From an uncultured Bacteroidales bacterium (GTDB lineage Bacteria > Bacteroidota > Bacteroidia > Bacteroidales > Paludibacteraceae), in contig CACXPH010000006.1 of assembly GCA_902769535.1 (NCBI GenBank), positions 87,507 through 151,506 of the forward strand: DNA of 64,000 bases. Reading direction: 5' to 3'. Of this stretch, positions 1,226 to 61,886 are shown in pieces; the stretch's first letter is position 1, and every line of letters begins with the position of its first letter. The notes under the pieces are model-generated. The model worked only from the letters and a program-made list of their open reading frames with translations. It was not told the DNA's origin and made no database searches. The translations under genes and the position numbers were made by a program.

Positions 1226-3006
1226 GGCTGCGACAGGGCATCAAGGCCTGCAGAGAGCGCGAAGAGGGTGACGTTCCAGTTGATGGTCACCTCATTGGAG
1301 GCGTAACTGGGTTGATAGTCCAGATAACTCTCATCCGCCGGTACGTTCTTCGGGTACTTCACCCCATCCGTAGCGGCATCTTGTTTGTCAGGATTCGGTC
1401 CTCCGGCAAGGAAGCCCGGTAGTGTGCCCTTCGGATGCGAATAGGACAGACGATGGTGCGGATGGCTCGTCGGGTGAGCACCAAAGCCCGTGACGTAACA
1501 GAAACCAGTTGCGTTCTGACCAAGGATGTAGTTGAGGCAACGCTGTGCGTTCACCATATAGCGATTGTCACCCGTCAGACGATAAGCATACAGACATTCG
1601 ATTCCGCGCCAGCAACACCCTTCCGAGTTGCAACCCCAGAAGAAATCCGATTCGCGGTTGCCGTAAGGCGATTTATAGACCGAAACGGTTGTTGCCTCAT
1701 TCAGATAGGACTCTAAATGCGCCAACAATTGGTCATTGGTTATTTGTAATTGGTCATTGTGCATCAGGAGTTCCAGATACGCCAGTTCTGCCACGTTGCC
1801 CCATACGGCAGGCGTATAAACGCTGCCGATTTGTGATTTATGATTTATGATTTCAGATTTGTAGAAATCATCGCCGGTAAGCAGATACAACTCCGTAGCA
1901 GCCCAGAGAAACTCATCACGTACATCGAAGTCGTCGTAGGCGCCGGTATTGATGGTCGGTTGAAACTCCTCATTCATTTTCGGCTGGTCGTAATAGACAT
2001 CGGGGTGCTCGAGTGCCCATCCGTAGGCGCATAAGGCCGCTTCTTCCGCCTCGACACAGAACCGCCCAAGGGTATTCTTATACGGCGCATAGATGCGTGC
2101 AGCGAGCGCCATCGTAGCGGCAAAGTCCAGTGCGGCGGCTGTGGTCTTCATGACTACATATCGCTGCTGTTTGCACTGATCGGGACGGATGAACTTCTCG
2201 AAGTTCGGGGTGGTTAGTTTATGGTAGACACCGCCATCCAAATCCTGCATAGTCATCATCCAGCGGATGTTATACATAGCCTCGGCAAGCATGTCAGGGA
2301 GCCTACCCTCTGTCCCTCCCCGAAGGGAGGGAGGTATGTTCAGGCTAAGCGTATCAAAGTAGGCCTTATTCATCTCGTACGCCATGAGCCAGACGCCCAT
2401 GGTATAGCCGGAGTTGACGATGTACTTGTTATAATCGCCTGCATCATACCAACCGCCCGGACAAGAGATAACGGTTCCTTCGGGACGGAGGTCGGTGGCC
2501 GCAGAGGCATGCACGAGTACATGATCATCCGGGTGTCCGGCGGGACGCGCATAGCCTTCGGCATAGGGTTCTTCGGTCGCCATCGAGGCGCGCTGGTGAT
2601 AGAACGCGCGGAGGGCAGCACGAGTGAGCTCTTTATAAGGGCGCGGCTCGATTGTAAATCGAGATGACGTAATTTCGTTATTACGTACTATCGACAATGT
2701 GTAAACACCGGGCTCTCGAAGCTCCGAGAAATCGACAAGTTGACAGGGTTTGCCGGAAATGGGATTAAGGATGACGGGTGAGAGGTGAGAGGAGAGAGGA
2801 ATAGTATCTCCGTTTTCGGTAAGAACGAAAACCTCGCTAACCGCCAACCGTTCATCGCTTAACGTTATCGTGGCCGTTTTCTCCTGTTCAGGCGCAAAAC
2901 CAAGTTGGTTCAATCGTATTGGACCATTATCGGGGTTCGTATAGTGCGTGCAGCTACTTAAGACCGCTAGCGCTGACAGAATACAGAATACAGATATTTT
3001 TCTCAT
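1222..3006 (-). CDS. GH9 endoglucanase lipoprotein with N-terminal Ig-like domain
   Basis: 594 residues. A lipoprotein signal ends LAVLSSC at residue 19, so it is probably outer-membrane anchored. Residues 27-120 form the Ig-like CelD_N domain (GPIRLNQLGF start). The catalytic GH9 domain follows: DAGDYNKY near 188 (nucleophile and base aspartates), HHR near 517, and NEVTINWN with the likely proton-donor Glu572. It should cut internal beta-1,4-glucan bonds. It lies 1 base after the symporter gene and overlaps the epimerase gene by 4. The gene holds five in-frame repeat words (SSHLSPV, RNNEITSSRF, PPSLRGGTEG, SEIINHKSQIG, NDQLQITNDQL) that resemble intergenic repeats elsewhere in the window; all fall outside the catalytic motifs. 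Confidence 0.93.
   Translation of the reverse strand: MRKISVFCILSALAVLSSCTHYTNPDNGPIRLNQLGFAPEQEKTATITLSDERLAVSEVFVLTENGDTIPLSSHLSPVILNPISGKPCQLVDFSELREPGVYTLSIVRNNEITSSRFTIEPRPYKELTRAALRAFYHQRASMATEEPYAEGYARPAGHPDDHVLVHASAATDLRPEGTVISCPGGWYDAGDYNKYIVNSGYTMGVWLMAYEMNKAYFDTLSLNIPPSLRGGTEGRLPDMLAEAMYNIRWMMTMQDLDGGVYHKLTTPNFEKFIRPDQCKQQRYVVMKTTAAALDFAATMALAARIYAPYKNTLGRFCVEAEEAALCAYGWALEHPDVYYDQPKMNEEFQPTINTGAYDDFDVRDEFLWAATELYLLTGDDFYKSEIINHKSQIGSVYTPAVWGNVAELAYLELLMHNDQLQITNDQLLAHLESYLNEATTVSVYKSPYGNRESDFFWGCNSEGCCWRGIECLYAYRLTGDNRYMVNAQRCLNYILGQNATGFCYVTGFGAHPTSHPHHRLSYSHPKGTLPGFLAGGPNPDKQDAATDGVKYPKNVPADESYLDYQPSYASNEVTINWNVTLFALSAGLDALSQP
1727..1760. repeat. In-frame tandem word in GH9 (TTGGTCATTGGTT type)
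   Basis: Two close copies of AATTGGTCATTG around GTTATTTGT. They encode NDQLQITNDQL in a loop of the GH9 domain. Confidence 0.7.
1829..1862. repeat. In-frame tandem word in GH9 (GATTTATGATTT type)
   Basis: Four near copies of GATTTATGA or GATTTGTGA. The same A/T-rich word family is intergenic at 26891-26955, 57650-57690 and 60820-60850. Here it encodes SEIINHKSQIG. Confidence 0.7.
2308..2346. repeat. Palindromic CCTCCC/GGGAGG repeat inside GH9
   Basis: CCTCCC-CGAA-GGGAGG (2315-2330) plus a G-rich tail. Read on the minus strand, the order of arm, loop, arm and GGGTAGGCTC tail matches the copies at 49079-49118 and 61612-61650. It encodes PPSLRGGTEG. Confidence 0.75.
2667..2686. repeat. ACGTAAT...ATTACGT palindrome inside GH9
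   Basis: A 20-base inverted repeat with 7-base arms ACGTAAT/ATTACGT. It is the same word family as the intergenic stretches at 5596-5638 and 11876-11915. Confidence 0.6.
2776..2799. repeat. GGTGAGAGGTGAGAGG tandem word inside GH9
   Basis: A purine-rich direct repeat (GGTGAGA units) encoding SSHLSP on the minus strand. Confidence 0.55.
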
Positions 3007-3007
3007 A

Positions 3008-4351
3008 TTATTTCTTTAATGGGAATTTATAGGCAAGGAGGCTCATGATCGCGGCGATGGAAGCCGGGAAGAGGGAGAAGAGTGCCCAAACCATGGTTCG
3101 GACAGAGGCTTCGTCGGTGATGATGACGATGGTCTCGCCGGTGGTCATATCGGTATGTGAGACGAGTCCGGCTGCGCCCAAAAGTAAGGCAATGAGGCTA
3201 CCGGAGATAGCTCCGCCGAATTTCTGCGCCATCGTTCCGGAGGAGAAGATAAGACCGGTGGAACTCGTTCCGTTTTTCTCGGTCGCATAGTCCGACACGT
3301 CGGCGTACATCGACCAAAGGAGCGGCGAGTAGAGTCCGACGCCTATGGATGCCAGGACAGATACGGCCACCATGAGCCAGATGTACGATGCGTCCATCGG
3401 GATGAAGAAATAGCAGACGGAGAAGAGGCAGCAGATGATGGAAGCCCAGACGAACGCCATGCGCTTGGAACCGATCATGCGGGTGTACACAGGACTGAGT
3501 GCACCGAAGATCATACAGGTCACTTCACTGAAAGCCATAAAGGCCGTGTAGTTGATGATGAAGCGTCCTACGCTCACGTCGCCGCCCACACAATAGGTGA
3601 ACATATAGGCCACCACGGCATAGCGGAAGCCGTTGAAGAAGTTCGTGCAGAAAGCGATGGAAGTCATGTAGACCCAGGGCTTATTGCGGAACAAGTCCGC
3701 GAACTGCTTAAAGCTGAATTTCTCTGCGATGATGGGTTTGTGGCGTTCCTTGGTTAGCAGACCGCAGGTCAGGGTCATGACAGCAGCCAGCAGGCCGAAG
3801 AAAGCACCGAGGACGGCATACTGTTGTTGCTCCGTTCCACCGACGAGTTTCTGCAGATAGGGGAAGGCGAAGAGGGTGATAAATCCCATCGCATACGCTC
3901 CGACCATACGGAAGGCAGAGAACTGGTTTTTCTCGTCATCATCGGTAGTCATCACGCCGAGCAGCGAGCCATACGGTACGTTCACCGCCGTGTACACCGC
4001 CATCATGAGCAGGTACAGACTGTACGCCCATATACGCTTACCAGTCATGCCGAGATCGGGCGTGAAGAGCAGGAGTGCGAAGATGAGTCCGAAGGGTATA
4101 GAGCCGAAGATGAGCCACGGGCGGTATGTTCCCCAACGGGTCTTTGTACGGTCCGCGATGGAACCCATGAGGGGGTCTGTGAACACATCGAAGATACGCG
4201 CTGCGAGCATGAGTGCAGCGGCATCGGCGAAGGTAAGGCCGAACACATGGGTGAAGAACATCGGGAAGGCGATGGACATAATCTTCCAGGTGATGCCGCC
4301 GGAAGCGGCATCACCCAGAGCATATCCGATTTTTTCGCGGAGAGGTATCAT
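3008..4351 (-). CDS. GPH-family sugar:cation symporter
   Basis: 447 residues, inner-membrane protein with about 12 hydrophobic segments. The family signature is clear near residue 50: ARIFDVFTDPLMGSIADRT followed by TRWGTYRPWL. Glycoside-pentoside-hexuronide symporters bring small sugars in with H+ or Na+. Placed between the surface glycan-binding lipoprotein and GH9, it most likely imports cellobiose and short cello-oligosaccharides for the cytoplasmic GH94 phosphorylase and the epimerase. It lies 6 bases after the upstream gene and 1 base before GH9, so it is part of the operon. The substrate is inferred. Confidence 0.9.
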   Translation of the reverse strand: MIPLREKIGYALGDAASGGITWKIMSIAFPMFFTHVFGLTFADAAALMLAARIFDVFTDPLMGSIADRTKTRWGTYRPWLIFGSIPFGLIFALLLFTPDLGMTGKRIWAYSLYLLMMAVYTAVNVPYGSLLGVMTTDDDEKNQFSAFRMVGAYAMGFITLFAFPYLQKLVGGTEQQQYAVLGAFFGLLAAVMTLTCGLLTKERHKPIIAEKFSFKQFADLFRNKPWVYMTSIAFCTNFFNGFRYAVVAYMFTYCVGGDVSVGRFIINYTAFMAFSEVTCMIFGALSPVYTRMIGSKRMAFVWASIICCLFSVCYFFIPMDASYIWLMVAVSVLASIGVGLYSPLLWSMYADVSDYATEKNGTSSTGLIFSSGTMAQKFGGAISGSLIALLLGAAGLVSHTDMTTGETIVIITDEASVRTMVWALFSLFPASIAAIMSLLAYKFPLKK

Positions 4352-4357
4352 AGGTGC

Positions 4358-5590
4358 TTATTTGTAAGTTACAGATGTAATGGTAGCGCCAAATCCAACA
4401 ACGAGCATAGACCCTTCTTCCTCAACTTTAGCCTTACCTTCTGCGGTATAGGTAAATGTTATAGGGTTGTCTCCCTCATGGACATCTTTCTTCTCCATGA
4501 GATTCATCGACCACCAGTCTGTGGTAACTTGGATTTGATGATAGGTATCACCCGCCATATCGAAATAAATCGAGATAGTAGCACCAGCCGGCACATTCGC
4601 CATTGCCTCTTTGGTTACTTTCGCTGTCACTGGTGGATCTACTTCCCAGTTGATTGTAACTGAGCCACTCCAGATGGTCGTCTCTGCGCTGACAAAAGTA
4701 GTAGCCTGAGCCACCAGTCCTTCTGCCGTCGCGAAGAGAACATCCGAGCCATCAGCATTCTTCATGGAGACAGTGTGATTACCCGGTTCGGCTGCAGGAG
4801 CAGTGAAAGTAACGGAGGTAGCAGTAGCCGTCAGTTCGGTAATGACGGTCTCGTCAATCGTGACGGAAGCCACGTTCTCCAATTTAACACCGGAGATCGT
4901 CCATTCCTCGCCCGGTTTAAACACCTCAAAGCCACTGAGCACAACGGATGAGTTATGCACGTTCAGCACGTTCGCACCGTAGCGTTTGCCGGCCTCGTCT
5001 TTGAGGAAGACATAATACGCACCGTCTGCCATCTCCGGCAAAACGAACTCAAGACGGGTGTCGGTAGCGGATGTCGGGGTAATGGTTTGAACGACATTCA
5101 TACCTTCGACATCACTAGTCAGTTCGAACGCTGTCACCGCTGCCAGGTTCACTCCTTCGATGGCAGTAGGAATGTTCGGCACCATATGACGTCCGCCGGC
5201 AGGAGCTGCCGAATACGGATCAGTCAGATATGGGTTGGCGATGAACGTACCGGTACGAGAGGTCTTCTTGCCGGCTTGGGTAACGGCCTCGATAACGAGG
5301 TCATACTGTCCGGACGGGAAGCACTTATCCAGTTTGGTACCGGTGAAGACGAGTTGTCCGTCGAGATACCAGTTGACGGTCGTGTAAGCGGACGGGGTCA
5401 CAACAACCGAGTCTGCACACAGCGTCTCCGGGTTCGATTGCGTCATGGTGATGGTACCGGAAGTACTCTCATAGGGGATGAGGATCAGCGGCGCATCATC
5501 GGGCGACTGGGTATCAAAGGGCGTGTTATCCTCGCATGACGCGAAACATAACGCCAAGGCTGCAAGCAGCAAAATATAGTGATTTTTCAT
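4358..5590 (-). CDS. Surface glycan-binding lipoprotein (SGBP type) with IPT/TIG-like domains
   Basis: 410 residues with lipoprotein signal ALCFASC (Cys19). Directly after SusD, this is the usual place of the second surface glycan-binding protein. The N-terminal part (about 25-115) is a beta-sandwich of PKD/Ig type. Two IPT/TIG-like stretches follow (about 125-215 and 215-295; NVHNSSVVLSGFEVFKPGE is typical). The C-terminal 110 residues are aromatic-rich (TDWWSMNLMEKK) and could be the glycan-binding domain. No enzymatic motif is seen. The fold reading is moderately sure; glycan binding is inferred from position. Confidence 0.78.
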   Translation of the reverse strand: MKNHYILLLAALALCFASCEDNTPFDTQSPDDAPLILIPYESTSGTITMTQSNPETLCADSVVVTPSAYTTVNWYLDGQLVFTGTKLDKCFPSGQYDLVIEAVTQAGKKTSRTGTFIANPYLTDPYSAAPAGGRHMVPNIPTAIEGVNLAAVTAFELTSDVEGMNVVQTITPTSATDTRLEFVLPEMADGAYYVFLKDEAGKRYGANVLNVHNSSVVLSGFEVFKPGEEWTISGVKLENVASVTIDETVITELTATATSVTFTAPAAEPGNHTVSMKNADGSDVLFATAEGLVAQATTFVSAETTIWSGSVTINWEVDPPVTAKVTKEAMANVPAGATISIYFDMAGDTYHQIQVTTDWWSMNLMEKKDVHEGDNPITFTYTAEGKAKVEEEGSMLVVGFGATITSVTYK

Positions 5591-5638
5591 ATCTTTTTCG
5601 ATGTTACGTTAATACGGGATTACGTTATTACGAAGGGA

Positions 5639-7330: not shown

Positions 7331-7334
7331 AATC

Positions 7335-7386
7335 GTATTCTTTAAACATTAAACATTAAACATTAAACATTAAACTTTAAACATTA
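7335..7386. repeat. TTAAACA tandem repeat between SusC and SusD genes
   Basis: Five copies of a 7-base TAAACAT unit plus variants (TAAACTT). It fills the whole gap between the two genes. Confidence 0.85.
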
Positions 7387-7387
7387 T

Positions 7388-10552: not shown

Positions 10553-10574
10553 GATTGTTTGTTATTAATGTGAA

Positions 10575-11855: not shown

Positions 11856-11875
11856 GATATCATGATTTATTTTTT

Positions 11876-15420: not shown

Positions 15421-15438
15421 ACGAAAAAAATGAAATTA

Positions 15439-15471
15439 TTTGCATATATCAAAAAAAAGCAGTAAATTTGC
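15439..15471 (+). promoter_or_regulatory. Promoter of the iorAB operon
   Basis: -33 TTTG at 15439-15442, 20 bases, -7 TAAATTTGC at 15463-15471, preceded by AAAAAAAAGCAG as at several other promoters in the window. Confidence 0.8.
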
Positions 15472-22523: not shown

Positions 22524-22570
22524 ATTTTGTGTATTTTTTGTACAAAATGTAAAAAAATCATTGATTTTTC

Positions 22571-22602
22571 TTGTATATTTCGAAAAAAAGCAGTACTTTT
22601 GC
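22571..22602 (+). promoter_or_regulatory. Promoter of the outer-membrane barrel gene
   Basis: -33 TTG at 22571, 20 bases, -7 TACTTTTGC at 22594-22602, with AAAAAAAGCAG directly before. Confidence 0.75.
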
Positions 22603-25200: not shown

Positions 25201-25225
25201 AAAATCGAACAAAAAGCCACAAAAA

Positions 25226-25258
25226 TTTGCGCAAATCAAAAAAAAGCAGTACATTTGC
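25226..25258 (+). promoter_or_regulatory. Promoter of the GldJ/GldK-like gene
   Basis: -33 TTTG at 25226, 20 bases, -7 TACATTTGC at 25250-25258, preceded by AAAAAAAGCAG. Confidence 0.8.
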
Positions 25259-25300: not shown

Positions 25301-26890
25301 ATGAAAAAGTATCTTTTAATCGTATTGGTGGCCATGACGGCTGTAGCTTGTAATCAACGCGAGCTGAACACCCGTGTAAGTAACACCACCGGTTGGAATT
25401 ATTTTGATCAAAAGACCACGAATTTCGAGGCCAATGAAGGCGTGGGTAATGTGCACCCGGTAGGTATGCTGCCTATTCAGGGTGGTTCGTTCACGGTAGG
25501 TGAGAAGGACGAGTTCCTTACCGCTCCGCGTAACAACGAGACCCGTACGCTGACCGTCAGCTCGTTCTATATGGACAAGTATGAGGTGACGAACCTGAAC
25601 TGGAATGAGTATCTGCATTGGTTGGACTTTGTCTTCGGTGCATTGGCTCCGGAGTTGGTTGACCAGGCTCGTCCGGATCATACGGTATGGCGTGAGGATT
25701 TGGCTTACAACGATCCGTATGAGGACAACTATTTCGATCACCCGGCTTTCTCTTTCTACCCGATCGTGGGTGTGACCTGGGAGCAGGCTATGAAGTACTG
25801 CCAGTGGCGTACGGACCGTGTGAACGAGATGGCGCTCATTAATGCCGGCGCGATTGTCGTTCCGCCGTTTGGCGATCTGCAGCCGACGGACGACGAGGCA
25901 TACAAGGATGAGTGGGAGCAAGAGACCGGCTACGAAATGTATGCATACGAGGAGGTTAGCCCGGAGGATCCGGAGCAGACCGTAACGATGTATCGTCCGA
26001 GCTACGAGTGGATTCGTGATAAGTTTGTATTCAATACCGAGAAATATCTCATGGATGACAGTTATGTACCTGAGTACGGTCGTCGTCCGAAATTCGATAG
26101 CTACGGCGCAGAGCGTAAAGTCACTCGTGCCGATGGTATTTTCGTGACGGGTTATCGTCTGCCGACGGAGGCTGAGTGGGAGTTTGCCGCGTATGCTCCG
26201 GTTGCCGGTGAGGACGGTCTGACCATCGAGGGTAAGGTGTATCCGTGGAGCGGTTATCATCCGCGTGACATGAGTAAGAAGAACCTCGGTCAGTTGCAGG
26301 CTAACTTCGTTCGCGGTCGCGGCGATATGATGGGTGTGAGCGGTGCGCTCAACGACCGTCATGTGATCACCAACCCGGTAGATGAGTTCGCTCCGAATGA
26401 TTTCGGTTTGTATAACATGGCCGGAAACGTGAACGAGTGGGTAATGGATGTATATCGTGAGACAACATTCCAGGAGACCAGCGAGTACAACTCATACCGT
26501 GGTAACATCTACAGCCATCCGGTATTGGATGAGAATGGTAAGTATGTGATTGACTCGGTAGGTTGTGTCAAGATCAGTTGGGGTAAAGAGGATGATAAGC
26601 GTGACGCGAAGGATGGTGATTTTGCCAGTCTGATCGATACCGATTATCCGCTGGACACCGTAGGTGTAGCTAACCTGAGTGAGGTGAAGACAGATCCGAC
26701 GGACATCCTGGCTCCGCGTATCACGAAGAAGAGCCGCGTGTACAAAGGTGGTTCGTGGGCTGACCGTATCTACTGGCTTAATCCGTCCACTCGTCGTTAT
26801 CTCGACCAGGATCAGGCTTCGTCTAAGATCGGTTTCCGCTGCGCAATGTCAACGCTCGGTGATCAGATCCCCGGCACTCCGGTAAAGTAA
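25301..26890 (+). CDS. GldJ/GldK-like lipoprotein with FGE-sulfatase fold (T9SS)
   Basis: 529 residues from the ATG at 25301 (an upstream ATG at 25277 is possible). Lipoprotein signal VAMTAVAC. An FGE-sulfatase domain follows: MLPIQGGSFTVGEKDEF near 55, SFYMDKYEVTNLNWNEYL near 85, PIVGVTWEQAMKYCQWRTDRVNE near 155, GYRLPTEAEWEFAAYA near 285, NMAGNVNEWVMDVYRE near 375, and YKGGSWADR...RCAMS at the end. GldK/PorK and GldJ ring lipoproteins of type IX secretion share this fold; the WRTDRVNE pattern and isolated position fit GldJ better. No porL, porM or porN follows. It fits the T9SS cargo downstream. Confidence 0.82.
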   Translation: MKKYLLIVLVAMTAVACNQRELNTRVSNTTGWNYFDQKTTNFEANEGVGNVHPVGMLPIQGGSFTVGEKDEFLTAPRNNETRTLTVSSFYMDKYEVTNLNWNEYLHWLDFVFGALAPELVDQARPDHTVWREDLAYNDPYEDNYFDHPAFSFYPIVGVTWEQAMKYCQWRTDRVNEMALINAGAIVVPPFGDLQPTDDEAYKDEWEQETGYEMYAYEEVSPEDPEQTVTMYRPSYEWIRDKFVFNTEKYLMDDSYVPEYGRRPKFDSYGAERKVTRADGIFVTGYRLPTEAEWEFAAYAPVAGEDGLTIEGKVYPWSGYHPRDMSKKNLGQLQANFVRGRGDMMGVSGALNDRHVITNPVDEFAPNDFGLYNMAGNVNEWVMDVYRETTFQETSEYNSYRGNIYSHPVLDENGKYVIDSVGCVKISWGKEDDKRDAKDGDFASLIDTDYPLDTVGVANLSEVKTDPTDILAPRITKKSRVYKGGSWADRIYWLNPSTRRYLDQDQASSKIGFRCAMSTLGDQIPGTPVK

Positions 26891-26955
26891 ATCATAAATT
26901 TGCAATCATAAATCATAAATTTGCAATCATAAATCATAAATCATAAATTATAATT
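26891..26955. repeat. AATCATAAATTTGC tandem word between the GldJ-like gene and gcvH
   Basis: Repeated AATCATAAAT units, two with a TTTGC extension, fill the gap. The TTTGC-containing units resemble -7 elements and could act as promoters for gcvH. Confidence 0.75.
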
Positions 26956-27330
26956 ATGAATTTTCCTGGAAATATCAAATATACCAGCGAGCATGAATGG
27001 ATTCGCGTAGAAGGCGATGAGGCTTACGTAGGTATCACGGATTATGCACAGTCTGAGTTGGGTGAGATCGTGTTCATCGACGTTCCGACGGAGGGTGAAA
27101 CGGTAGCACAAGGCGAGGTCTTCGGTTCGATCGAAGCCGTTAAGACGGTGAGCGACCTTAACATGCCTGTTACAGGCGAAGTGCTGGAGATCAACGGTGC
27201 GCTGGATGCCCAGCCGGAGTTGGTTAACAACGACCCGTACGGCGAAGGTTGGATCATCAAGATCAGCGTCAAGGATCCGGCTGAACTCGACAACCTGATG
27301 GACGCTTCAGCATACGAGGCTAGCCTCTAA
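26956..27330 (+). CDS. gcvH: Glycine cleavage system H protein
   Basis: 124 residues, usual length. [24 protein letters not shown] (9-32) is the family start; [11 protein letters not shown] holds the lipoyl-lysine Lys63; [12 protein letters not shown] closes the domain. It shuttles the aminomethyl group between the P, T and L proteins. It stands alone here with its own terminator. Confidence 0.96.
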
Positions 27331-37770: not shown

Positions 37771-37802
37771 AGAAAGGGCTGCCTTCGGGTAGCCCTTTCT
37801 GT
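37771..37802 (+). terminator. Terminator of the giant adhesin-like gene
   Basis: AGAAAGGGCTGCC-TTCG-GGTAGCCCTTTCT, a 13-pair stem closed by a stable TTCG loop and followed by a weak T-rich stretch. Confidence 0.8.
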
Positions 37803-37810
37803 TGATACCT

Positions 37811-37854
37811 TATCGTATGTTTATCGTATGTATATCGTATGTTTATCGTATGTT
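37811..37854. repeat. 11-bp tandem repeat TATCGTATGTT x4
   Basis: Four units with one substitution. The same unit occurs twice at 47768-47790, again just behind a T9SS cargo gene. Confidence 0.85.
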
Positions 37855-37932
37855 TGTCCTTATCAGAAATTGGACAAAAAGAAAGAAATCCGTTGCAAAA
37901 AGAAGAAAAAAAGACGAAAAAGGCGCAAAAAC

Positions 37933-47500: not shown

Positions 47501-47764
47501 GACGGAGTCAAACTCTTCACCTGTCCGTTCATTCCGGTAGAAGTACCGTCGGATATAGTCGATGTGCCGACGCTCGTGAACCTCACCTCGCAGATTCCGA
47601 TGAAGGGCAAGGGTGTGGCATACTGGTACGACATGCTCGGCCGTTGCTTCTCGCGCGAGGACTACAACGACTCTGCCATCACCGCGCCGGGCATAGCAGG
47701 CTATTACCTGCTCGTCCTCCAAACGGACGAAGAACGCTCCGCACACCGCATGATGGTTCGATAG
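44564..47764 (+). CDS. Large secreted protein, paralogue of the preceding gene, T9SS type A tail
   Basis: 1066 residues; ATGs at 44564, 44567 and 44573 are all possible. Signal peptide ends LTVLPLRAA. It shares the layout of the previous protein: PFSCSFEENEDLSNWVMNN, an FN3-like region, ESRHTIHTDPTETDPRT, GALASVRLGNWATG, WKDWTTIGVNLQPYHGQ and YGYAYFTVDC. It adds cysteine motifs of the form C-N-GCDSVxxLxLxV (near 745 and 810) that are common in T9SS cargo. The tail ITAPGIAGYYLLVLQTDEER plus HRMMVR is a sorting domain. The pair probably arose by tandem duplication. Likely surface structural or binding proteins. Confidence 0.85.
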   Translation: MMNMKRLFSIYVWVVMLTVLPLRAAIPFSCSFEENEDLSNWVMNNPSTATDKWMFGTVVHSEGKRSMYISSDGKNPLYGAHPNIVVSYMRFKFPETGKQQNYDISFDWKGIGNADNAKLYVMVCREDLLTNSQSNNPYYLGRIASATSGILSPTVVNACQQIGPNGDRFLCGSEVWQNVSLTNELRINTTNSTMPFAIVFIWVNNNIDPNVRQSGICIDNLQIGDATIKKPKNVQVEPVCEDSSILVNWESGLKEFEVQYRKVGTNTWRRQDGITDGVEGFTRNGTQCSYALQRIGEATYDVRVLGIAGDLRSNYSYKNQVLVYCPDNHCVAYLDLYGQNVECTYGKNPFVSGSGGGTPFDYHGVMDYGSDAKESRHTIHTDPTETDPRTDDQLLTVPKGALASVRLGNWATGAEAEAITYHITVDSANQGLLIVHYAVVLENPGNHPHDQEPFFQMVVLDEHDNVIDESCGQAEFSYSDGVEAGWNMTKDNTAAWKDWTTIGVNLQPYHGQNIKVRFVTYDCAQTGHYGYAYFTVDCVSARLETENCGNDSKIECYAPEGFAYKWFNELGQVVGTDRELVVDAGRHEYTCRVSFVEDPECWFEVKTVSAPRFPVPEYTVEPIYDQCTSKLRFHNTSHVMNKYDGTETHTHESVQDCHWYFTRLSDHTTTESYNWNPVYTCPEGGDTIVVNYICYIGENNACDSSRVDTIVVPNIVPKNTEFHISTCYSDPVQFGGQWFDKDTVFVGIYPNFAGCDSVSTLYLEVFERPDDIYRHDSICSDSSIMIDGLTFNEPMTNRPFILKTVNGCDSVVYVTLTVNERIDVDVDALAYACADGLSFLIPYDVTVGQYDSLQIRFNTPELRDTTIYDPSVTSVLIPYPADILPGHYTATMRFHQFCCGIRTEKRPFDIRYSNVVITQRWNDVLAIRNADYNGGFTFDSVQWYLDDKPISGATDFNYYAGAGNKLQFGQEYTALLVRRDGVKLFTCPFIPVEVPSDIVDVPTLVNLTSQIPMKGKGVAYWYDMLGRCFSREDYNDSAITAPGIAGYYLLVLQTDEERSAHRMMVR

Positions 47765-47767
47765 GGT

Positions 47768-47790
47768 GATCGTATGTTTATCGTATGTTT
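47768..47790. repeat. 11-bp tandem repeat TATCGTATGTT x2
   Basis: Two units of the repeat seen four times at 37811-37854, in the short gap before the GH105-like gene. Confidence 0.8.
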
Positions 47791-47795
47791 GACCT

Positions 47796-49283
47796 ATGTA
47801 TAACCTTAGGTTCTGTATATTGGTTTTAGCCATTTGGATGGCAAGTTGCACGGTGCAAAAAGAGGGTGCCAAACCTTCTAAAAGCACCGTGTGCTATTCC
47901 CGTGAGATGATTAACGCGCGCATGAGTGCGTGGTATAATAAGGACAATCAAGTCGGTTTTGCCAATGCCAACAGTACGAACGGCATCACCGAACCTGCCG
48001 TGCAAGCGAGTTGGGATTACGTACCGGGCGTCGTAGCCAAAGGTATTTTGGATGTGTGGGAATACTATCAAGATTCCGCGTGGGCGGATGCTTGGTACAA
48101 AGGCCTCTGTACATGGGCTTTGCAGCAGACGGCAACCAATCAAGGTGGTATCCTGGATGATTTGAATTGCACCAAAGTGTTCATCGGTCTCTATAATGGA
48201 GCCAAACCCGGCGGACGTTTTGAGAACGCCGACCATGCCGCCTATTTCATGGAGCAGATGAAGCGCGGAGCCAAAGGTCTCGACGAACATAAACGCCTCT
48301 ATACCATCGCAGGTGGAGGTGCAGCAGGCGGATGGATGCATAAGGCCACGGACAACCCTGCGCAGAGTTATTGGGGGCAGATGTGGTGTGACGGCGCGTA
48401 CATGGGGCAGGCGCTCTTGGCGCAACTCTTAGTGGCCGGCGCGTGCGAAGGAACGTCTCTCGGATGGAATGATGTCTATGACCAGTTCGAGGTCTCATGG
48501 CCTTATCTCTGGGATGAAGAGCAGCAGCTACTTTACCACGTCCTGTTCACCGACGTTACTACCAATCAAAATGCGAAAGCCATCTATGATGCCGGGCATC
48601 TCTATCCTTGTGCGCTCGATTCGACCATCTATCACTCCGAAGAGTATTGGGGGCGGGCTGCAGGATGGTATATGCTGGCGTTGGTCGATGTGCTGGAAGC
48701 GTATCTGATTAGCTTAGAGCAGAGCGGCGAGCGCATGGCGGGAGACCCACTGCCTTCTGCGCAACATTTCGATACCTTACGCGATTACCTGACCCTGCTC
48801 GCAGACGGCCTCGTAGCGCGTCAGGATCCTCAGACCGGCTGTTGGTATCAGTTGCTCCAATACGGTTCCGAGAAATGCGCTACGCAGGGAATAGACGATA
48901 CCGGTTCAGCTAAATACACCAATGTTGCCGAAGGCGGTACGCAGTGTAACTACCTCGAGTCTTCGGCCTCTTGCCTGATCACAGCTGCGTTACTCAAAGG
49001 TTCACGCCTCGGCCTCATCCGTCATACCGAAGCCGGCAAGAAAGGCTACGAAGGAATCTTGCGTACGTTTGTGAAAAATACTCCCTCCCTTTCAGGGGAG
49101 GGCTGGGGAGAGGCTCTTACCATTACTTCCAGTTGCCAGTCTGCCGGACTAAGCAAAGACCGTAACGGCACAGCCGCCTATTACCTCATCGGTAAGGACG
49201 TTCCTATTCAGGATAACACCGAAGGAAAAGTATTGGGTCCTTTTTTGATGGCCGCTGTAGAATACGAAAAACTCGCCCGTTAA
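47796..49283 (+). CDS. GH105-like (unsaturated glucuronyl/rhamnogalacturonyl hydrolase-type) lipoprotein
   Basis: 495 residues with lipoprotein signal AIWMASC. An alpha/alpha six-barrel of the GH105/GH88 group: SWDYVPGVVAKGILDVWEYY near 70, SYWGQMWCDGAYMGQALL near 190, EEYWGRAAGWYMLALVDVLE near 290 and NYLESSASCLITAALLKGSR near 390. GH105 enzymes remove unsaturated uronic acids left by pectin lyases. No lyase is nearby, so the substrate is open. Residues about 428-440 (TPSLSGEGWGEA) are encoded by a palindromic repeat shared with GH9 and mrp. The stop codon lies inside the terminator hairpin. Confidence 0.85.
   Translation: MYNLRFCILVLAIWMASCTVQKEGAKPSKSTVCYSREMINARMSAWYNKDNQVGFANANSTNGITEPAVQASWDYVPGVVAKGILDVWEYYQDSAWADAWYKGLCTWALQQTATNQGGILDDLNCTKVFIGLYNGAKPGGRFENADHAAYFMEQMKRGAKGLDEHKRLYTIAGGGAAGGWMHKATDNPAQSYWGQMWCDGAYMGQALLAQLLVAGACEGTSLGWNDVYDQFEVSWPYLWDEEQQLLYHVLFTDVTTNQNAKAIYDAGHLYPCALDSTIYHSEEYWGRAAGWYMLALVDVLEAYLISLEQSGERMAGDPLPSAQHFDTLRDYLTLLADGLVARQDPQTGCWYQLLQYGSEKCATQGIDDTGSAKYTNVAEGGTQCNYLESSASCLITAALLKGSRLGLIRHTEAGKKGYEGILRTFVKNTPSLSGEGWGEALTITSSCQSAGLSKDRNGTAAYYLIGKDVPIQDNTEGKVLGPFLMAAVEYEKLAR
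49079..49118. repeat. CCCTCCC/GGGAGGG palindromic repeat inside the GH105-like gene
   Basis: Arms CCCTCCC and GGGAGGG (49083-49102) followed by CTGGGGAGAGGCTC. The same arrangement, with tail, is found at 2308-2346 (minus) and 61612-61650. Confidence 0.8.
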
Positions 49284-49295
49284 GGCGAGTCTTTT
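49270..49295 (+). terminator. Terminator overlapping the GH105-like stop codon
   Basis: ACTCGCC-CGTTAA-GGCGAGT with CTTTT after it; the loop contains the TAA stop. Confidence 0.8.
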
Positions 49296-49388
49296 GTATT
49301 AGCGAAGCCAATACATTTTATGCCGTTAAGGCGAGTCTTTTGTATTAGCGAAGCCAATACATTTTATGCCGTTAAGGCGAGTCTTTCA
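49279..49388. repeat. 46-bp tandem repeat built from the terminator right arm and a second hairpin
   Basis: GTTAAGGCGAGTC recurs at 49279, 49325 and 49371, a 46-base period with two full units and a partial third. Each full unit also has the hairpin TGTATTAGCGAAGCCAATACA (stem TGTATT/AATACA). Only the first unit has the left arm of the terminator. Confidence 0.9.
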
Positions 49389-49412
49389 TTCTATAGGATT
49401 CTAGTGTCCGTC

Positions 49413-54168: not shown

Positions 54169-54221
54169 TCGTACTTTCTAATTTTTAATTCGTAATTTTT
54201 AATTCTTAATTTCTCTAAAAG

Positions 54222-56836: not shown

Positions 56837-56852
56837 CTTTCACCTTTCCCCT
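56776..56852. repeat. Repeat words forming the potC start region
   Basis: GTAGTTACGTAATCCCGTAATCCCG (same family as 11876-11915, split here as GTAGTTACGTAAT plus CCCGTAATCCCG) and CTTTCACCTTTC units around the proposed start codon. The true start of the extension is therefore uncertain. Confidence 0.6.
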
Positions 56853-57644
56853 TTAAACGATGGCTTCGCCATCCTTGCTGTCATGGTCGCCGAAGAACGA
56901 CGTCAGACCGATGATGATTAATAATACGAGCGACAGTACTGCGCCGTAGTTGAGCAGGTCAGTCGTGGTGATATAATCCTGAATGAGACTACCGAACAAC
57001 TTAATGTTGTTATGCGTCAATAACTCGGCAATAGCGAAGGTCGAGACAGTCGGCATGAACACCATCACGATACCGCTGTACACGCCCGGCATACTCAGCG
57101 GCACGATGATCTTCCAGAAACTCTGCCACCGGTTCGCGCCTAAGTCCTGAGCCGCTTCTACCAGCGAGTTATCCATCTTCTGGAGCGTGTTATAGATCGG
57201 GTAGATCATGAACGGCAGATAGTCGTAGCACAGACCGAAAAGCAACGCGCCTTCACCTAACGGCAGACCGCACATGTTAAACAACTCTACCGTGGCTACC
57301 GTGCGCAGCAGGAAGTTGATCCACATCGGCAGAATGAACAACATCGCCATCACTTTCGGTGTCTTGAAATCTTCCTGCGCCATGATATATGCCGCCGGAT
57401 AACCGATCAACAGACAGATAACCGTGTTGAACACCGCGATCATTACCGAATATAGGAAGGTCTGGATAGCTTCGCTATGCGTGAAGAACTTCGCGAAATT
57501 ACGCACCGTGAACTGGCCGTTGATATCCGTGAACGCATACACGCCCACCAAGATCAGCGGTAGTATCACAAACAGCGCCATGAACAGCACATACGGCCAT
57601 GCCCACGTCCGTCGCGAAGAGAATATTTGTATGAGTTTACTCAT
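56853..57644 (-). CDS. potB: Polyamine ABC importer permease PotB
   Basis: 263 residues, the usual size. Six transmembrane helices; N-terminus WAWPYVLFMALFVILPLILVGVYAF; the EAA loop is EAAQDLGANRWQSFWKIIVPL near 170. With PotC it forms the inner-membrane channel. Located 27 bases after potA and 16 before potC. Confidence 0.94.
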   Translation of the reverse strand: MSKLIQIFSSRRTWAWPYVLFMALFVILPLILVGVYAFTDINGQFTVRNFAKFFTHSEAIQTFLYSVMIAVFNTVICLLIGYPAAYIMAQEDFKTPKVMAMLFILPMWINFLLRTVATVELFNMCGLPLGEGALLFGLCYDYLPFMIYPIYNTLQKMDNSLVEAAQDLGANRWQSFWKIIVPLSMPGVYSGIVMVFMPTVSTFAIAELLTHNNIKLFGSLIQDYITTTDLLNYGAVLSLVLLIIIGLTSFFGDHDSKDGEAIV

Positions 57645-57671
57645 CTCAAATCTAAAATCTCAAATTTGCAA

Positions 57672-59228
57672 TCATAAATTAGGAATTTTATCCAGAAGAA
57701 TCTTCTTCTTCGGGATAATAATTCCAACCCTATCGCCGTCGTCCCAAACGTCATTCGTGTTCACATACAGGTCGTTCCCTTCGTCCGTACGGATGGTCAG
57801 GTGGTAGTGGTTACCCTTGAACAAGATGAAATGCACCTCACCGCTCAACGTACCTTCTTCCTCATAGTCCTGCAGGTCAATATCGCGGAACTTCACGCGC
57901 ACTTGTACCTTGTCACCGACCTCAAAGCCCTCTAACTGCTTCTCATCCACTTCCCACTCGGCATCCAGGAACCATACCTTACCGTTCTTCAGCACTTCGC
58001 CTTCGAAATAGTTGTAGATATAGTGCTCTTTCTTCATAATCTGGATATCCTCCGGCCGAACCAGCATACCTACTTCCGTGCCCGGCAAGTACTCATGGTA
58101 GTCCTGGATGAGGAACTCATAGTTATCCGGCGTCAACACACGCATCTCATAGTGCACACCTTTGAAGATACAACTCTGCACCTCGCCGTACCATTTGGTG
58201 AATTTCCCCTTCGGCACGCGATCCTCCGGATCATCCTCCGGATGGTTCATCATTTCATCATTGAGCGACGAAGTCGCGCTCATTCCATCATTCTTTTTGG
58301 GCACCGCCCAAATATAGATATCCTCCGGACGAATGACCACATCCACCGGGTTGTTCTCGCCAAAACCGGTATCGATACAGTCGAACTCCTGGCCGCAGAA
58401 CTCTACGCGTTTGTCGCGAATCATGGTTCCGCTTAAGATGTTACTTTCTCCGATGAAATCGGCCACAAAGCAGTTTTGCGGCTCGTTGTAAATATCCGTT
58501 GGAGTACCGATCTGCTGGATCTTACCTTCGCTCATTACCACCACGCGGTCGCTCAGCGTCAGCGCCTCTTCCTGATCGTGCGTGACGTAGATAAACGTGA
58601 TACCGAGTTTCTCGTGCAACTCCTTCAACTCGATCTGCATATCGTGCCTCATCTTGAGGTCCAACGCACTCAGTGGTTCGTCGAGCAGCAGTACTTCCGG
58701 CTTGTTCACAATAGCGCGCGCGATAGCAACACGTTGCTGCTGACCACCACTAAGCGTATCTACTTTACGCTCCTCATAGCCCGTCAGGTTCGCCATCTTC
58801 AGCGCCTGACGCACTTTCTTCTTGATCGTTTCCGGATCCTCTTTCTTCAACTTAAGACCGAAAGCGACATTATGGAATACATTCAAATGGGGGAATAAGG
58901 CGTATTTCTGGAATACGGTATTCACAGGACGTTTATACGGCGGGGTCTTCGTTACATCCTCACCTTTCAGCAGGATAACACCCGAAGAAGCGACCTGAAA
59001 ACCTGCGATACATCGCAGTAAGGTTGTCTTACCGCAGCCCGAAGGACCTAAGATGGTGACGAACTCGCCTTTCTTCACCTGAAGGCTTACGTCATTCAAC
59101 GCAAACTTACCGTCTTCAAACTGCTTGGAGACGTGGTTGACCTCAATAATAAAATCCGATTTTGCCCGGAGCGTCTTCCCATCGGATTGGGAAGAGCGGC
59201 TTCCGCCTAGAAGGGTTTCTTGCTTCAT
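57672..59228 (-). CDS. potA: Polyamine ABC importer ATPase PotA, enlarged
   Basis: 518 residues; typical PotA is 370-460. Walker [10 protein letters not shown] (61-69), signature LSGGQQQR (159-166), Walker B LLLDEP (180-185), then the TOBE-type regulatory region. Two additions are coded by palindromic repeats: residues 4-24 ([18 protein letters not shown], hairpin TCTTCCC/GGGAAGA) and about 312-330 ([15 protein letters not shown]). The catalytic parts are untouched. It has its own promoter 40 bases upstream and is first gene of the pot operon. Confidence 0.93.
58248..58296. repeat. Palindromic repeat inside potA
   Basis: Hairpin TGAGCGAC-GAA-GTCGCGCTCA (one bulge; 58263-58283) flanked by TCATTTCATCATT units, encoding [15 protein letters not shown] in frame. 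Confidence 0.7.
59166..59215. repeat. Palindromic repeat in the potA N-terminal codons
   Basis: TCTTCCC-ATCGGATT-GGGAAGA (59174-59195) followed by GCGG-CTT-CCGC (59196-59206). It encodes residues 4-22 of PotA, outside the ATPase fold. Confidence 0.65.
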
Positions 59229-59267
59229 TTTAATCTTATTGCTCGCGCATGTGAGCGCAATTTGGGC

Positions 59268-59299
59268 ACAAAATTACTACAAAAAAATGGAATGTGCAA
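59268..59299 (-). promoter_or_regulatory. Promoter of the pot operon
   Basis: Minus strand: -33 TTG at 59299-59297, 20 bases, -7 TAATTTTGT at 59276-59268. Confidence 0.65.
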
Positions 59300-59362
59300 G
59301 TTTTTATGCATAAAAATGCAGTCTGTGCGTGCACAAGCGTAATTTTTGGCATAAAAAATTGG

Positions 59363-59465
59363 CGTTCGCTCAGTTAAGCGAACGGAATTTCGAGGTGGGA
59401 CGGCAAAGCCGTGTCGGTGCCCTCGAAATTACTACAATTCCGTCAAGGCGGAGTCCGAAAGTACT
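59363..59465. repeat. Nested hairpin element between the MATE gene and potA
   Basis: CGTTCGCT-CAGTTA-AGCGAACG (59363-59384), then an outer stem AATTTCGAGG/CCTCGAAATT (59386-59430) enclosing ACGGC-AAA-GCCGT. Two ACTACAATT copies follow. The 59229-59473 gap otherwise contains only the pot promoter. It may include the terminator for the MATE gene. Confidence 0.65.
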
Positions 59466-59473
59466 ACAATTTA

Positions 59474-60814
59474 CTATTCCTGCAGACTTTTGCGAGCAGA
59501 AAGCAGTACAATAACAGCCGTGAAGGCTGAAAGGGTGTCGCTGACCGGAATAGACCACCATACGCCATCCAGCGGATCCGCGAAGGCTAAGGGCAGTAAC
59601 AACGCTAAAGGAATGAGGTACAGCACTTGGCGTGTCAGACTCAGGAATATAGCCTTGCCGGCTTTGCCGATAGAGGTGAACAGGTTACCCGTCACCATCT
59701 GGAATCCGATGATGAGCATCGTGCTGCAGATGATACGCATCGGCTTGATCGTCAGGTCAATCAGCATCGGATCATGCGTGAACATCTTCGTTACGACCTC
59801 CGGACAACACTCGCCTAACAGGAACACGATACCCATGACCCCCGTCGCATAGGCGCAAGTGGTGTAGAAAACCTTCAGCACGCGGTCGAACTGCTTGGCG
59901 CCGTAGTTATAGCCCGCGATCGGTTGCATGCCCTGGTTCAGACCCATCACCATCATCGCAAAAACGAACGTCAATCGGTTGATCACACCGTACGATGCGA
60001 TCGCCAAGTCTCCTCCGAAATGCTTCAATTGGTTATTGATGATGATCACTACAAAACAATGCGCGATATTGTACAAAAACGGCGACATACCGATGGCTAA
60101 AGCACGGCTCGTGATGTGCTTGTTAAGGCGCCAAATTCCCCGATGAAATCGAACTAATTCGTTCTTGTCCATGAATTTGGTGAACTGCCAAACAACGGCG
60201 ACAGCTTGACTGATAACCGTCGCCAAAGCAGCGCCCCTTACACCCATCTCCATGCCGAAAATGAACAGCGGATCTAAGATGATATTCACCACCACCGCCA
60301 CGATCGTAGCCGTCATCGAGAATCGCGGGTGACCGGCGGAACGAAGCATGGCATTCAAACCGAAATAGATATGCGTCAGGATGTTTCCGTACAGGATGAT
60401 CTCCATGTAGTCATGGGCAAAGCCCAAGGTGTCTTCGCTCGCGCCGAAAGCCAGCAGGATCGGGTCAAGCCAGATCAGACCCACCGCCATCACGATGGCA
60501 GACAGGATGATATTCATCACGATCACGTTACCTAACACGCGGTTGGCACGGTCGTAATCTTTCTCTCCTAAATATATCGCCAGCAACGACGAAGCACCGA
60601 CTCCTACCAGACTGCCGAAGGCAGCGCAGATGTCCATGAACGGTTTAGCTACCGTCAACGCACCTAACGCCAACGCTCCGCATCCGTGACCGATATAGAT
60701 ACTATCCACGATATTATACATCGAGGTTGCGGTCATCGCTATGATGGCCGGCATCGCATATCGGAATAGCAATTTATGTATCGGCGCGGTGCCGAGTTCG
60801 GCAGTTCTTGACAC
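59474..60814 (-). CDS. MATE-family multidrug or cation exporter
   Basis: 446 residues, twelve transmembrane segments in two similar halves. IGHGCGALALGALTVAKPFMDI (near 48), GYNYGAKQFDRVLKVFYTT (near 290) and GMQPIAGYNYG are MatE features. It exports organic cations or drugs using Na+ or H+. It lies 31 bases after mrp and is probably co-transcribed. The closest subgroup is NorM/DinF-like; substrate unknown. Confidence 0.92.
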   Translation of the reverse strand: MSRTAELGTAPIHKLLFRYAMPAIIAMTATSMYNIVDSIYIGHGCGALALGALTVAKPFMDICAAFGSLVGVGASSLLAIYLGEKDYDRANRVLGNVIVMNIILSAIVMAVGLIWLDPILLAFGASEDTLGFAHDYMEIILYGNILTHIYFGLNAMLRSAGHPRFSMTATIVAVVVNIILDPLFIFGMEMGVRGAALATVISQAVAVVWQFTKFMDKNELVRFHRGIWRLNKHITSRALAIGMSPFLYNIAHCFVVIIINNQLKHFGGDLAIASYGVINRLTFVFAMMVMGLNQGMQPIAGYNYGAKQFDRVLKVFYTTCAYATGVMGIVFLLGECCPEVVTKMFTHDPMLIDLTIKPMRIICSTMLIIGFQMVTGNLFTSIGKAGKAIFLSLTRQVLYLIPLALLLPLAFADPLDGVWWSIPVSDTLSAFTAVIVLLSARKSLQE

Positions 60815-60845
60815 TTCTAAATCATCAATTATAAATCATAAATCA

Positions 60846-61886
60846 TCAATCATCTATCGCTTTGGCGATTTCCGCAAATGCGATAGATGCAGGGTGCCCT
60901 GCTTGCAGCACAATCGGAGTACCCTCATCGCCACCCTCGCGGATGGACTGCACGAGCGGTATCTGACCGAGCAACGGTATATCTAATTCTTCCGCCAGTT
61001 TTTTACCTCCGTCTTTGCCGAAAATGTAGTACTTGTTATTCGGCAATTCCGCCGGTGTGAACCACGCCATATTCTCGATGAAACCGAGGATTTTTACATT
61101 CACCTTCTCGTTTCGGAACATCTCCACACCCTTCCGTGCATCGACTAATGCCACCGGTTGCGGAGTAGTTACTACAATGACGCCCGTCAACTGCAATTCC
61201 GAGATCAGCGTCAGGTGAATATCGCTCGTTCCGGGAGGCAGGTCAATCAAGAAATAATCCAACTCACCCCAGTGTGCGTCTTCGATCAATTGCTTAATCG
61301 CATTCGATGCCATTCCTCCGCGCCAGATAACGGCACTTTCCGGATTGACGAAGAATCCGATGGACAGCATCTTAACCCCATACTGCTCGATGGGCTCGAT
61401 CAGCGTCCGTCCGTCTTCTTCCACCGACACCGGTCGACAGTCTTCCGTATGAAACATCTTCGGCATTGACGGACCGTGAATATCCGCGTCCAATAGGCCT
61501 ACGCGGTATCCCTGTTGTGCCAATGCTACCGCCAGGTTTGCCGTTACGGTCGATTTACCGACTCCGCCTTTTCCGCTGTGAATGGCGATAATATGCTTGG
61601 CGTGGATTTTACTCTCCCCTCCTTTCATGGAGGGGGCGGGGGTAGGCTTCTTTATATGAATCTTCGCGGCCACATTCGGATCGATATACGTCTGAAGAGC
61701 CACTTCCGCAGCCTTCACCACCGACTTCTGGAACGGGTCATTCTCTTTCTGGAATATCAGCGAGAACGACACCTCATAACCTGAGATGCGTATATCGTCC
61801 TCGAGCATTCCGCTCTCTATCAGATCCTTTCCCGTTCCCGGGTACCGCACATGCCTCAACGCATCAATTACCTGTTGTGGATACAT
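60846..61886 (-). CDS. mrp: Mrp/ApbC-type iron-sulphur carrier P-loop ATPase
   Basis: 346 residues. The N-terminal DUF59/MIP18-like domain (1-75) leads to a P-loop domain with the deviant Walker A SGKGGVGKST (104-113), LLDADIHGPSMP and YFLIDLPPGTSDIHLTL. The usual CxxC pair that bridges a shared cluster is missing: the stretch reads ENMAWFTPAELPNNKYYIFG. Either the cluster is held otherwise or the protein has drifted in function; this form may be normal for the phylum. Residues 80-92 (KPTPAPSMKGGES), in the linker between domains, are coded by the palindromic repeat shared with GH9 and GH105. Confidence 0.93.
   Translation of the reverse strand: MYPQQVIDALRHVRYPGTGKDLIESGMLEDDIRISGYEVSFSLIFQKENDPFQKSVVKAAEVALQTYIDPNVAAKIHIKKPTPAPSMKGGESKIHAKHIIAIHSGKGGVGKSTVTANLAVALAQQGYRVGLLDADIHGPSMPKMFHTEDCRPVSVEEDGRTLIEPIEQYGVKMLSIGFFVNPESAVIWRGGMASNAIKQLIEDAHWGELDYFLIDLPPGTSDIHLTLISELQLTGVIVVTTPQPVALVDARKGVEMFRNEKVNVKILGFIENMAWFTPAELPNNKYYIFGKDGGKKLAEELDIPLLGQIPLVQSIREGGDEGTPIVLQAGHPASIAFAEIAKAIDD
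61612..61650. repeat. CCCCTCC/GGAGGGG palindromic repeat inside mrp
   Basis: Arms CCCCTCC and GGAGGGG (61616-61635), then GGGGGTAGGCTTC. Relative to its gene it lies in the opposite orientation to the copies in GH9 and GH105. Confidence 0.8.

Follow-up and report, generated by a model that had tools for sequence, protein, structure and literature searches.

How does a single palindrome of some 35 bases come to lie, in frame, inside three unrelated protein-coding genes of one bacterium? The question is raised by a 64,000-nucleotide stretch of DNA from an uncultured Bacteroidales bacterium of the Paludibacteraceae (assembly GCA_902769535.1, contig CACXPH010000006.1, positions 87,507 to 151,506), which was analysed over its full length and is referred to here as the window. 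Palindromic repeats that keep the reading frame are familiar chiefly from Rickettsia and a minority of repetitive extragenic palindromes (REPs). An earlier note, made from the sequence alone, had pointed to one such repeat in a GH9 gene, a GH105-like gene and mrp. The stretches that it described are real, and the family to which they belong, named family A here, is larger than was first noted. We consider it probable that family A is a mobile palindrome whose present distribution has been filtered by selection.

All three window copies are read through in frame by their host genes, and they occur in both orientations, as had been claimed. The first (2299..2336, + strand) lies within a GH9 glycoside hydrolase of 594 aa encoded on the - strand (open reading frame (ORF) 1222..3006; PF00759, E 1.6e-74), where it is translated as IPPSLRGGTEGRL. 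The second (49079..49116, - strand) is read as NTPSLSGEGWGEAL in a GH88/GH105-type hydrolase of 495 aa on the + strand (ORF 47796..49283; PF07470, E 1.2e-33), and the third (61612..61649, - strand) as KPTPAPSMKGGES in an mrp-type P-loop NTPase of 346 aa on the - strand (ORF 60846..61886; PF10609, E 6.8e-92). The element thus runs opposite to the gene in the two hydrolases and in the same direction in mrp. There it occupies approximately residues 80-92, between the FeS_assembly_P (4-66) and ParA (96-344) matches, and these Pfam boundaries confirm the inter-domain linker position first assigned to it. While the repeat is present at all three places originally indicated, its ends had to be corrected, to 2299-2336 (from 2308-2346), 49079-49116 and 61612-61649. 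The order first given for its parts (C arm, loop, G arm, tail) holds for GH9 on the strand of the gene; on the + strand, the AGCCT end lies to the left of the hairpin. The Pfam match of the GH105-like gene is to PF07470, Glyco_hydro_88.

Family A was searched for with a covariance model, R1, of 38 positions and 7 base pairs, built from an ungapped alignment of ten copies. These seeds include all three window copies, whose scores (GH9, 50.7 bits, E 4.4e-10; GH105-like, 53.8 bits, E 8.3e-11; mrp, 54.8 bits, E 5e-11; next window match, E 1.8) are consequently not independent. The proposal of a dispersed repeat carried the expectation of further copies, and these were found in the draft genome that holds the window (G000, the home genome; 1.887 Mb in 39 contigs, 84.85% complete, 2.49% contaminated). 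Here R1 returned 43 matches at E<=10 and 35 at E<0.01, the next best having an E of 1.09; ten of the 35 are seeds and 25 are not, and the count rests on the 150 of 417 first-look candidates that were scored. A plain palindrome pattern matched three times in the window alone (at most three mismatches), a number equalled in 23 of 100 shuffles, and is not significant there. Over the whole home genome a similar pattern had 24 matches on one strand and 25 on the other, with 14 and 10 for a reversed control; many of the matches are palindromes within genes.

The core of family A can be written AGCCTACCCCC-NN-CCCCTCCCTRAARGGARGGGAG. Profiles were drawn from 87 copies in three genomes: 30 of the 35 home copies (five of other length were dropped) and 57 of 60 from two further genomes, G167 (30) and G155 (27), where the copies were taken from stretches around better-scoring matches, the totals in those genomes being 76 and 39. 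They give a core of about 35 nt, AGCCT(A/C)(C/A)CCCC-NN-CCCCTCCCTRAARGGARGGGAG, in which a conserved AGCCT end is followed by a C-rich spacer and then by the hairpin CCCCTCC-loop-GGAGGGG. In each of the three sets, conservation is already close to background about three bases beyond either end, and every base of AGCCT is held at 87-100% despite differing reading frames. Selection at the protein level therefore cannot explain its conservation. On the G-rich strand, the AGCCT end reads GGTAGGCT in most copies and GTGAGGCT, GAGAGGCT or one of a few other variants in the remainder. Many copies have the tetranucleotide GTAG on this strand, separated from the stem by the spacer. Some variants, GTGAG and GAGAG among them, have lost it, and profile position 8 (the C in CTAC) is occupied by C in just 63% of the 30 home copies. 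Covariation gives partial support to hairpin pair 18/31, which is a C-A mismatch in 37 of the 87 copies, T-A in 25 and C-G in 22. Copies also occur in pairs, either inverted with the AGCCT ends outward (in the home Mfd gene and at two G167 loci) or direct (in G155). Rfam, searched over the window at its gathering threshold, recognised only a tRNA and assigned the palindrome to no family.

In the home genome, 33 of the 35 copies lie wholly within a stop-free ORF of at least 100 aa and two just upstream of a gene, a split that a greedy gene caller reproduces exactly, and the copies occupy both orientations and several frames. Genes likewise hold 30 of 31 examined copies in G167, and 14 of 29 in G155, where 14 lie outside and one is partly inside. 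Random positions in the same stretches fall in genes at rates of 0.939 (home), 0.938 (G167) and 0.827 (G155). A share of copies in genes that merely equals chance is itself notable, because most insertions into genes should be lost. Orientation relative to the gene shows no significant bias among the 77 in-gene copies (32 same, 45 opposite, p 0.17).

We considered, and rejected, the possibility that the element is unusual in leaving every frame open: copies have a mean of 3.56 open frames, whereas random 38-mers drawn from the window have 3.94 and shuffles 4.33. Having fewer open frames than random sequence, the element is not built to be open; the copies observed are survivors. The same-2 frame is closed in 83 of the 87 copies and opp-2 in 71. 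All 13 copies that are read in opp-2 (five home, six G167, two G155) lack the GTAG that closes this frame, and the two copies scored as same-2 (L039, L268) are short copies with an indel.

The host proteins are unrelated and often essential, including ArgS, RsmH, DusB, MnmE, Mfd, Lpd and thioredoxin reductase. When ten insert-bearing proteins were compared with NCBIfam, five passed the cut-off (RsmH, MnmE, Lpd, ArgS and Mfd) and two fell just below it (DusB, 283 bits against a cut-off of 293; thioredoxin reductase, 341 against 343); a GldA-like ABC ATPase, a PcrA/UvrD-type helicase and FtsK scored further below, the latter two being incomplete in their loci. Pfam identifies GH9, GH88-type, mrp, acyl-ACP thioesterase and ABC-F type ATPase hosts, together with an EPSP synthase/glycosyltransferase fusion. 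The names NtrC-type regulator, ApbE-like, DPP-like, TPR, CaCA and GldG-like are putative assignments made by eye. Three copies fall in N-terminal stretches resembling signal peptides (L020, L050, L051) and three precede a similar C-terminal tail (L042, L044, L048). The insert in thioredoxin reductase falls in a gap of the phmmer alignment with the best solved homologues. In the AlphaFold model of RsmH (mean predicted local distance difference test score, pLDDT, 87.5), it lies at about residues 192-204, flanked by helices 186-193 and 210-227, and the block mean pLDDT there drops from 96 to 83.

Orthologous sites show that the element is absent from most relatives. The earlier proposal would be hard to sustain if orthologues carried the same residues, and at the three window sites R1 finds the element in one of 30 mrp loci, one of eight GH9 loci and one of ten GH105-like loci of the genus, always the window's own copy; one extra match in a GH105-like locus (L106) lies away from the site. 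Among 30 RsmH loci (L109-L138), the home gene and, as two copies, that of G175 (L121) carry the element, three further loci have weaker matches (E 5e-4 to 0.018) and many have a shorter linker. Of the 30 ArgS loci (L139-L168), the home gene, L140 and L151 carry it at a common site, while a match in L153 and two weak matches in L160 lie elsewhere. The L153 match (2808-2844, E 4.1e-5) is within the span of the G184 ArgS match and off the shared site.

Twenty-five host sites were then compared with four relatives picked as near and low-copy (G152, G153, G180 and G174, with 4, 0, 2 and 2 copies), in which R1 places the element at one of 87 loci. With the site empty in the relative, the home protein is longer by 10 residues in thioredoxin reductase (against 4/4 relatives), 8 in Lpd (3/3), 7 in the DPP-like protein (4/4), 13 in RsmH (3/4), 13 in ArgS (3/4, and 8 against the fourth) and 11 in the thioesterase (3/4, and 0 against the fourth). 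In the GldG-like gene, G152 has the same copy with near-identical flanks, and the other three relatives are 7-9 residues shorter. Since several sites are empty in near relatives and different repeats occupy others there, the elements are insertions.

These sites are also re-used. The ArgS and DusB sites of related species are occupied by the element in a different frame or as a different variant, and RsmH sites of other species have different GC-rich peptides or AT-rich or purine-rich repeats, although the repeat nature of some of these RsmH-linker peptides is putative, having been read by eye. In G152, a different repeat with GGTCTTACAGCG units occupies the DusB and GldA-like linkers (L371, L373) where the home genome has the palindrome. 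At three shared sites, Lpd (home/G167), RsmH (home/G175) and the TPR gene (home/G167), the element is alike at 105 of 114 nt and the 150-nt flanks at 678 of 893 (Fisher p 3.6e-5, or 1.5e-6 with ArgS of G167/G177 added; the pairs were hand-picked, and the test is indicative). Where the variants differ, the shared element is less alike (ArgS home/G167, 28/34 with 8 gaps; DusB home/G167, 30/38). For the GldG-like gene shared with G152, the element is identical and the flanks agree at 265 of 300 positions. Around this copy, almost identical sequence extends over some 90 nt (L039, L309) and the outer flanks differ more, a pattern that suggests recent exchange.

Copy number differs greatly among relatives. 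Of 41 genomes of the genus R1 matches 33, the remaining eight having no copies and the highest count being 76; in a sample of 150 genomes of the family it matches 41, which belong to 17 of 33 genera. Beyond the genus most counts are from 1 to 9 and the matches weak; two genomes have 15 and 22. Two viral contigs have an exact pattern match; one of them, from IMG/VR, has a 213-aa ORF that lacks any Pfam match and reads through the palindrome in frame close to its C-terminus (L385, 3310-3347). No plasmid relatives matched one 101-base query. Weaker R1 matches on contigs of Mediterranea sp. and Prevotella sp. (L215 1956-1992 and 2029-2065; L214 2497-2533; E 1.9e-5, 5e-4 and 0.0029) hint that related elements may exist elsewhere in Bacteroidales, and GC-rich repeats of a similar sort may be widespread in Bacteroidota genomes.

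We propose the following model. The three stretches would be copies of one non-autonomous mobile palindrome of about 35 nt, REP-like in size and shape, which multiplies within genomes of this Paludibacteraceae-like genus through a mover acting in trans. Insertion would take little account of genes, and selection would then purge copies that break a protein. Copies would survive where they are read in a stop-free frame, alter the length by whole codons and lie in a part of the protein that tolerates them, be it a loop, an inter-domain linker, a signal peptide or a tail. On this model the translated peptide would be a by-product that varies with frame and orientation: we infer mobility at the DNA level, a trans-acting protein as the mover, and peptides without any useful function. 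The repeat family itself, its copy numbers, in-frame location, two orientations and empty sites, and the variation in copy number among relatives are observed directly.

Several results weigh against this model. Firstly, a preference for genes was considered and rejected, the home and G167 fractions equalling chance (p = 1.0 in both cases); in G155, copies lie in genes less often than random positions do (14/29 against 0.827, p 2.4e-5). Secondly, insertion is not cleanly recorded at every site. A block of 36-45 bases had been expected, and RsmH and ArgS do differ by 13 codons from three of four relatives; mrp has no net gain against three of four and is one residue shorter than the fourth, and GH9 is inconsistent, being shorter than both aligned near relatives yet 5 residues longer than the two shortest orthologues. 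Over the 25 sites, length differences run from -13 to +18 residues and only some (about +7 to +13) resemble a plain block, while many linkers, among them CaCA, FtsK, ABC-F, GldA-like, HU-like and ApbE-like, are too variable to judge. Furthermore, the flanking duplication expected in the earlier note did not appear: neither the flank profiles of the three genomes nor codon alignments of 11 host genes with diverged relatives show a target-site duplication or a preferred target, although, with flanking DNA only some 70-90% alike in shared pairs, a short duplication could have escaped notice. As single-stranded DNA the hairpin is no more than modestly stable: the folds of seven copies lie between -4.6 and -9.5 kcal/mol, their z between -2.96 and -0.32, and in two of the seven the best fold differs from the model hairpin. 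PF01797 (Y1/RAYT, the REP-associated tyrosine transposases) has no match at E<=0.001 in the home genome, which is 84.85% complete and in which other nuclease classes were not searched. Finally, the slower divergence of shared elements than of their flanks is not predicted by one-time insertion alone; possible explanations are conversion between copies, a constraint acting on the DNA, and exchange of genes between species.

Some of these points would also fit spread in the absence of any dedicated enzyme. Hairpins and short shared sequences might be places where template switching during replication, or gene conversion, copies the palindrome into linkers under little constraint and keeps the copies alike. 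This is the main rival to our model, which it overlaps, as the model leaves the nature of the mover undecided, and we regard it as possible, if on balance doubtful. It would accommodate the lack of a visible target duplication, the variable net length changes, the replacement-like mrp site, the unrelated repeats in the same linkers of relatives, the greater likeness of element than flank at the three hand-picked shared sites, and the absence of a Y1 transposase match from eight of the 14 genomes with at least 17 copies. The consistent ends, with their near-invariant AGCCT, suggest instead a recognised terminus, and a range of 0 to 76 copies inside one genus looks like bursts of an active mover. 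A broader account would hold that several unrelated short repeats continue to pass into the loops of essential proteins, moved by something other than a known transposase and homogenised after insertion, with the linkers repeatedly rewritten by parasites at the DNA level. We offer this as a speculation and think it rather unlikely; were it true, linker evolution in these bacteria would be driven by repeat exchange rather than by point mutation.

A classical GTAG-type REP moved by a RAYT (TnpA-REP, a Y1 HUH transposase) of the same genome is improbable. The size and hairpin are REP-like, the inverted pairs in the home Mfd gene and in G167 have their conserved ends outward, and GTAG stands on the G-rich strand of many copies; it is set across the spacer from the stem, however, and is lost in the GTGAG and GAGAG variants. 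Weak partial PF01797 matches (E 1.3e-5 to 4.1e-4) occur in six of the 14 genomes with at least 17 copies (G134, G155, G163, G167, G170 and G178), in ORFs of 330-416 aa, which are longer than is usual for that family. The other eight are match-free at E<=0.001: besides the home genome, these are G138, G177 and G184 (36, 39 and 53 copies; 97-98% complete) and G166, G171, G175 and G179. The sole strong match among 42 genomes (E 2.9e-25) belongs to G172, a genome with only 8 copies. An extract of PMC6006769 does report a RAYT subclass, mostly from Bacteroidetes, with atypical structures. Selection for a useful peptide linker is scarcely credible: several of the peptides are proline- or glycine-rich and located in linkers, but there are at least five different ones, from unrelated frames and both strands, the DNA ends are conserved whatever the frame, and 2 of 35 home copies and 14 of 29 examined G155 copies (with one more partly inside) lie outside called genes. 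A regulatory hairpin, such as a terminator or attenuator, would suit a GC-rich inverted repeat of which about half the examined G155 copies are outside genes, yet is just as implausible with 33 of 35 home copies inside ORFs, no conserved T run after the hairpin in the profiles and no Rfam match in the window.

Other repeats share this genome with family A. A second palindrome, family B, CGTCCTCCCGACAAACGGGAGGAG, is read in frame as SSRQTGG in BatD-like, NadD-like and DnaX-like genes with Pfam matches (L003, L016 and L053, each at 1501-1521; home genome C1:93397, C8:54624 and C25:28724); it was found with the pattern designed for family A, and its count is a lower bound. Directly after the GH105-like gene (window 49277-49386) stand two full head-to-tail copies, and the start of a third, of a 46-bp unit beginning CCGTTAAGGCGAGTCTTTTG. 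A near-repeat of 40-56 nt with AAAAAAAAGCAGTA..TTTGC (15424-15471, 22555-22602, 25211-25258 and 61912-61967) lies at or before the starts of four ORFs on both strands and looks like a shared promoter or operator. AT-rich repeats of the AAATCATAAATC type (1824-1860, 26874-26956, 57640-57701 and 60804-60858) are mostly near the ends or starts of genes, and the RsmH linkers of relatives contain peptides resembling translated AT-rich repeats of this sort. Tandem 11-bp units, TCGTATGTTTA, occur at 37794-37873 and 47751-47819, about 10 kb apart. The GH105-like genes of G152 (L100) and G167 (L102) each have one internal TAG in the match.

The implications concern both the biology of this gut-associated genus and the annotation of its proteins. 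Nearly all copies lie inside genes in two of the three genomes studied, several of them in housekeeping enzymes, and the large differences in copy number between species mean that presence and absence can be compared across close relatives. The family thus amounts to a natural collection of sites in conserved enzymes where an insertion has been tolerated, and raises the question of what moves a 35-nt palindrome when no RAYT is found. Peptides of this kind should be annotated as insertions and not as conserved motifs.

A comparison with known systems places family A more precisely. The earlier note had drawn a parallel with the palindromic elements of Rickettsia (RPEs), and this holds in behaviour: in both, palindromic repeats enter unrelated genes and keep the frame, as extracts of PMC3767692 relate, RPE-4, -6 and -7 being the closest to family A. 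Insertion in frame in protein genes is seen in 33 of 35 home copies, with empty orthologous sites. The same source describes different repeat groups at neighbouring positions in Rickettsia orthologues, which resembles the situation in family A linkers. RPEs are nevertheless given there as repeats of 100-150 bp, and where one Rickettsia gene has the insert its orthologues also do. Family A has a core of about 35 nt, leaves many sites empty in relatives and belongs to a gut Bacteroidota relative; it is set apart here on the basis of this published description of RPEs.

The intragenic REPs offer a second likeness. According to extracts of Di Nocera et al. 2013 (PMC3733652), most REPs are intergenic, and some of the GTAG and CGTC classes are wholly intragenic and translated, so that the kind of element seen here is already known. 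Like family A, these are short stem-loops that form dimers and have repair and tRNA genes among their hosts; unlike them, family A has neither of these two tetranucleotides beside the stem, a C/G-rich spacer intervening before GTAG, and nearly all its home copies are in genes. Nor does it show the RAYT association of GTAG REPs in the home genome or in G138, G177 and G184, the six weak partial matches set out above being elsewhere. CGTC REPs have a CGTC end, a stem of 8-9 bp with AT in the first two positions and a loop of 4-5; family A ends in AGCCT, and family B, in which CGTC precedes the stem, lacks the initial AT. The earlier note knew of no described family of this kind in Bacteroidales; among openly licensed PMC papers we too found none, and no literature matching five encoded peptide strings, yet the extracts of PMC3733652 name Bacteroidetes among the phyla with the CGTC class.

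Two further systems are informative. The Bacteroidetes RAYT/REP group (TnpA-Y1 subclass 2.6), as extracts of PMC6006769 present it, shares with family A its phylum and atypical palindromes with copies elsewhere in the genome; it differs in that no Y1 transposase match was found in the home genome or in three near-complete high-copy genomes. Coding miniature inverted-repeat transposable elements are likewise non-autonomous repeats fused in frame to genes, but extracts of PMC2229807 give them some 100-200 bp and, for most, terminal inverted repeats and target duplications. Family A has neither feature visible, consisting of a single hairpin near one end. Overall, our analysis suggests that family A falls outside each definition tested, and yet behaves as RPEs and intragenic REPs do.

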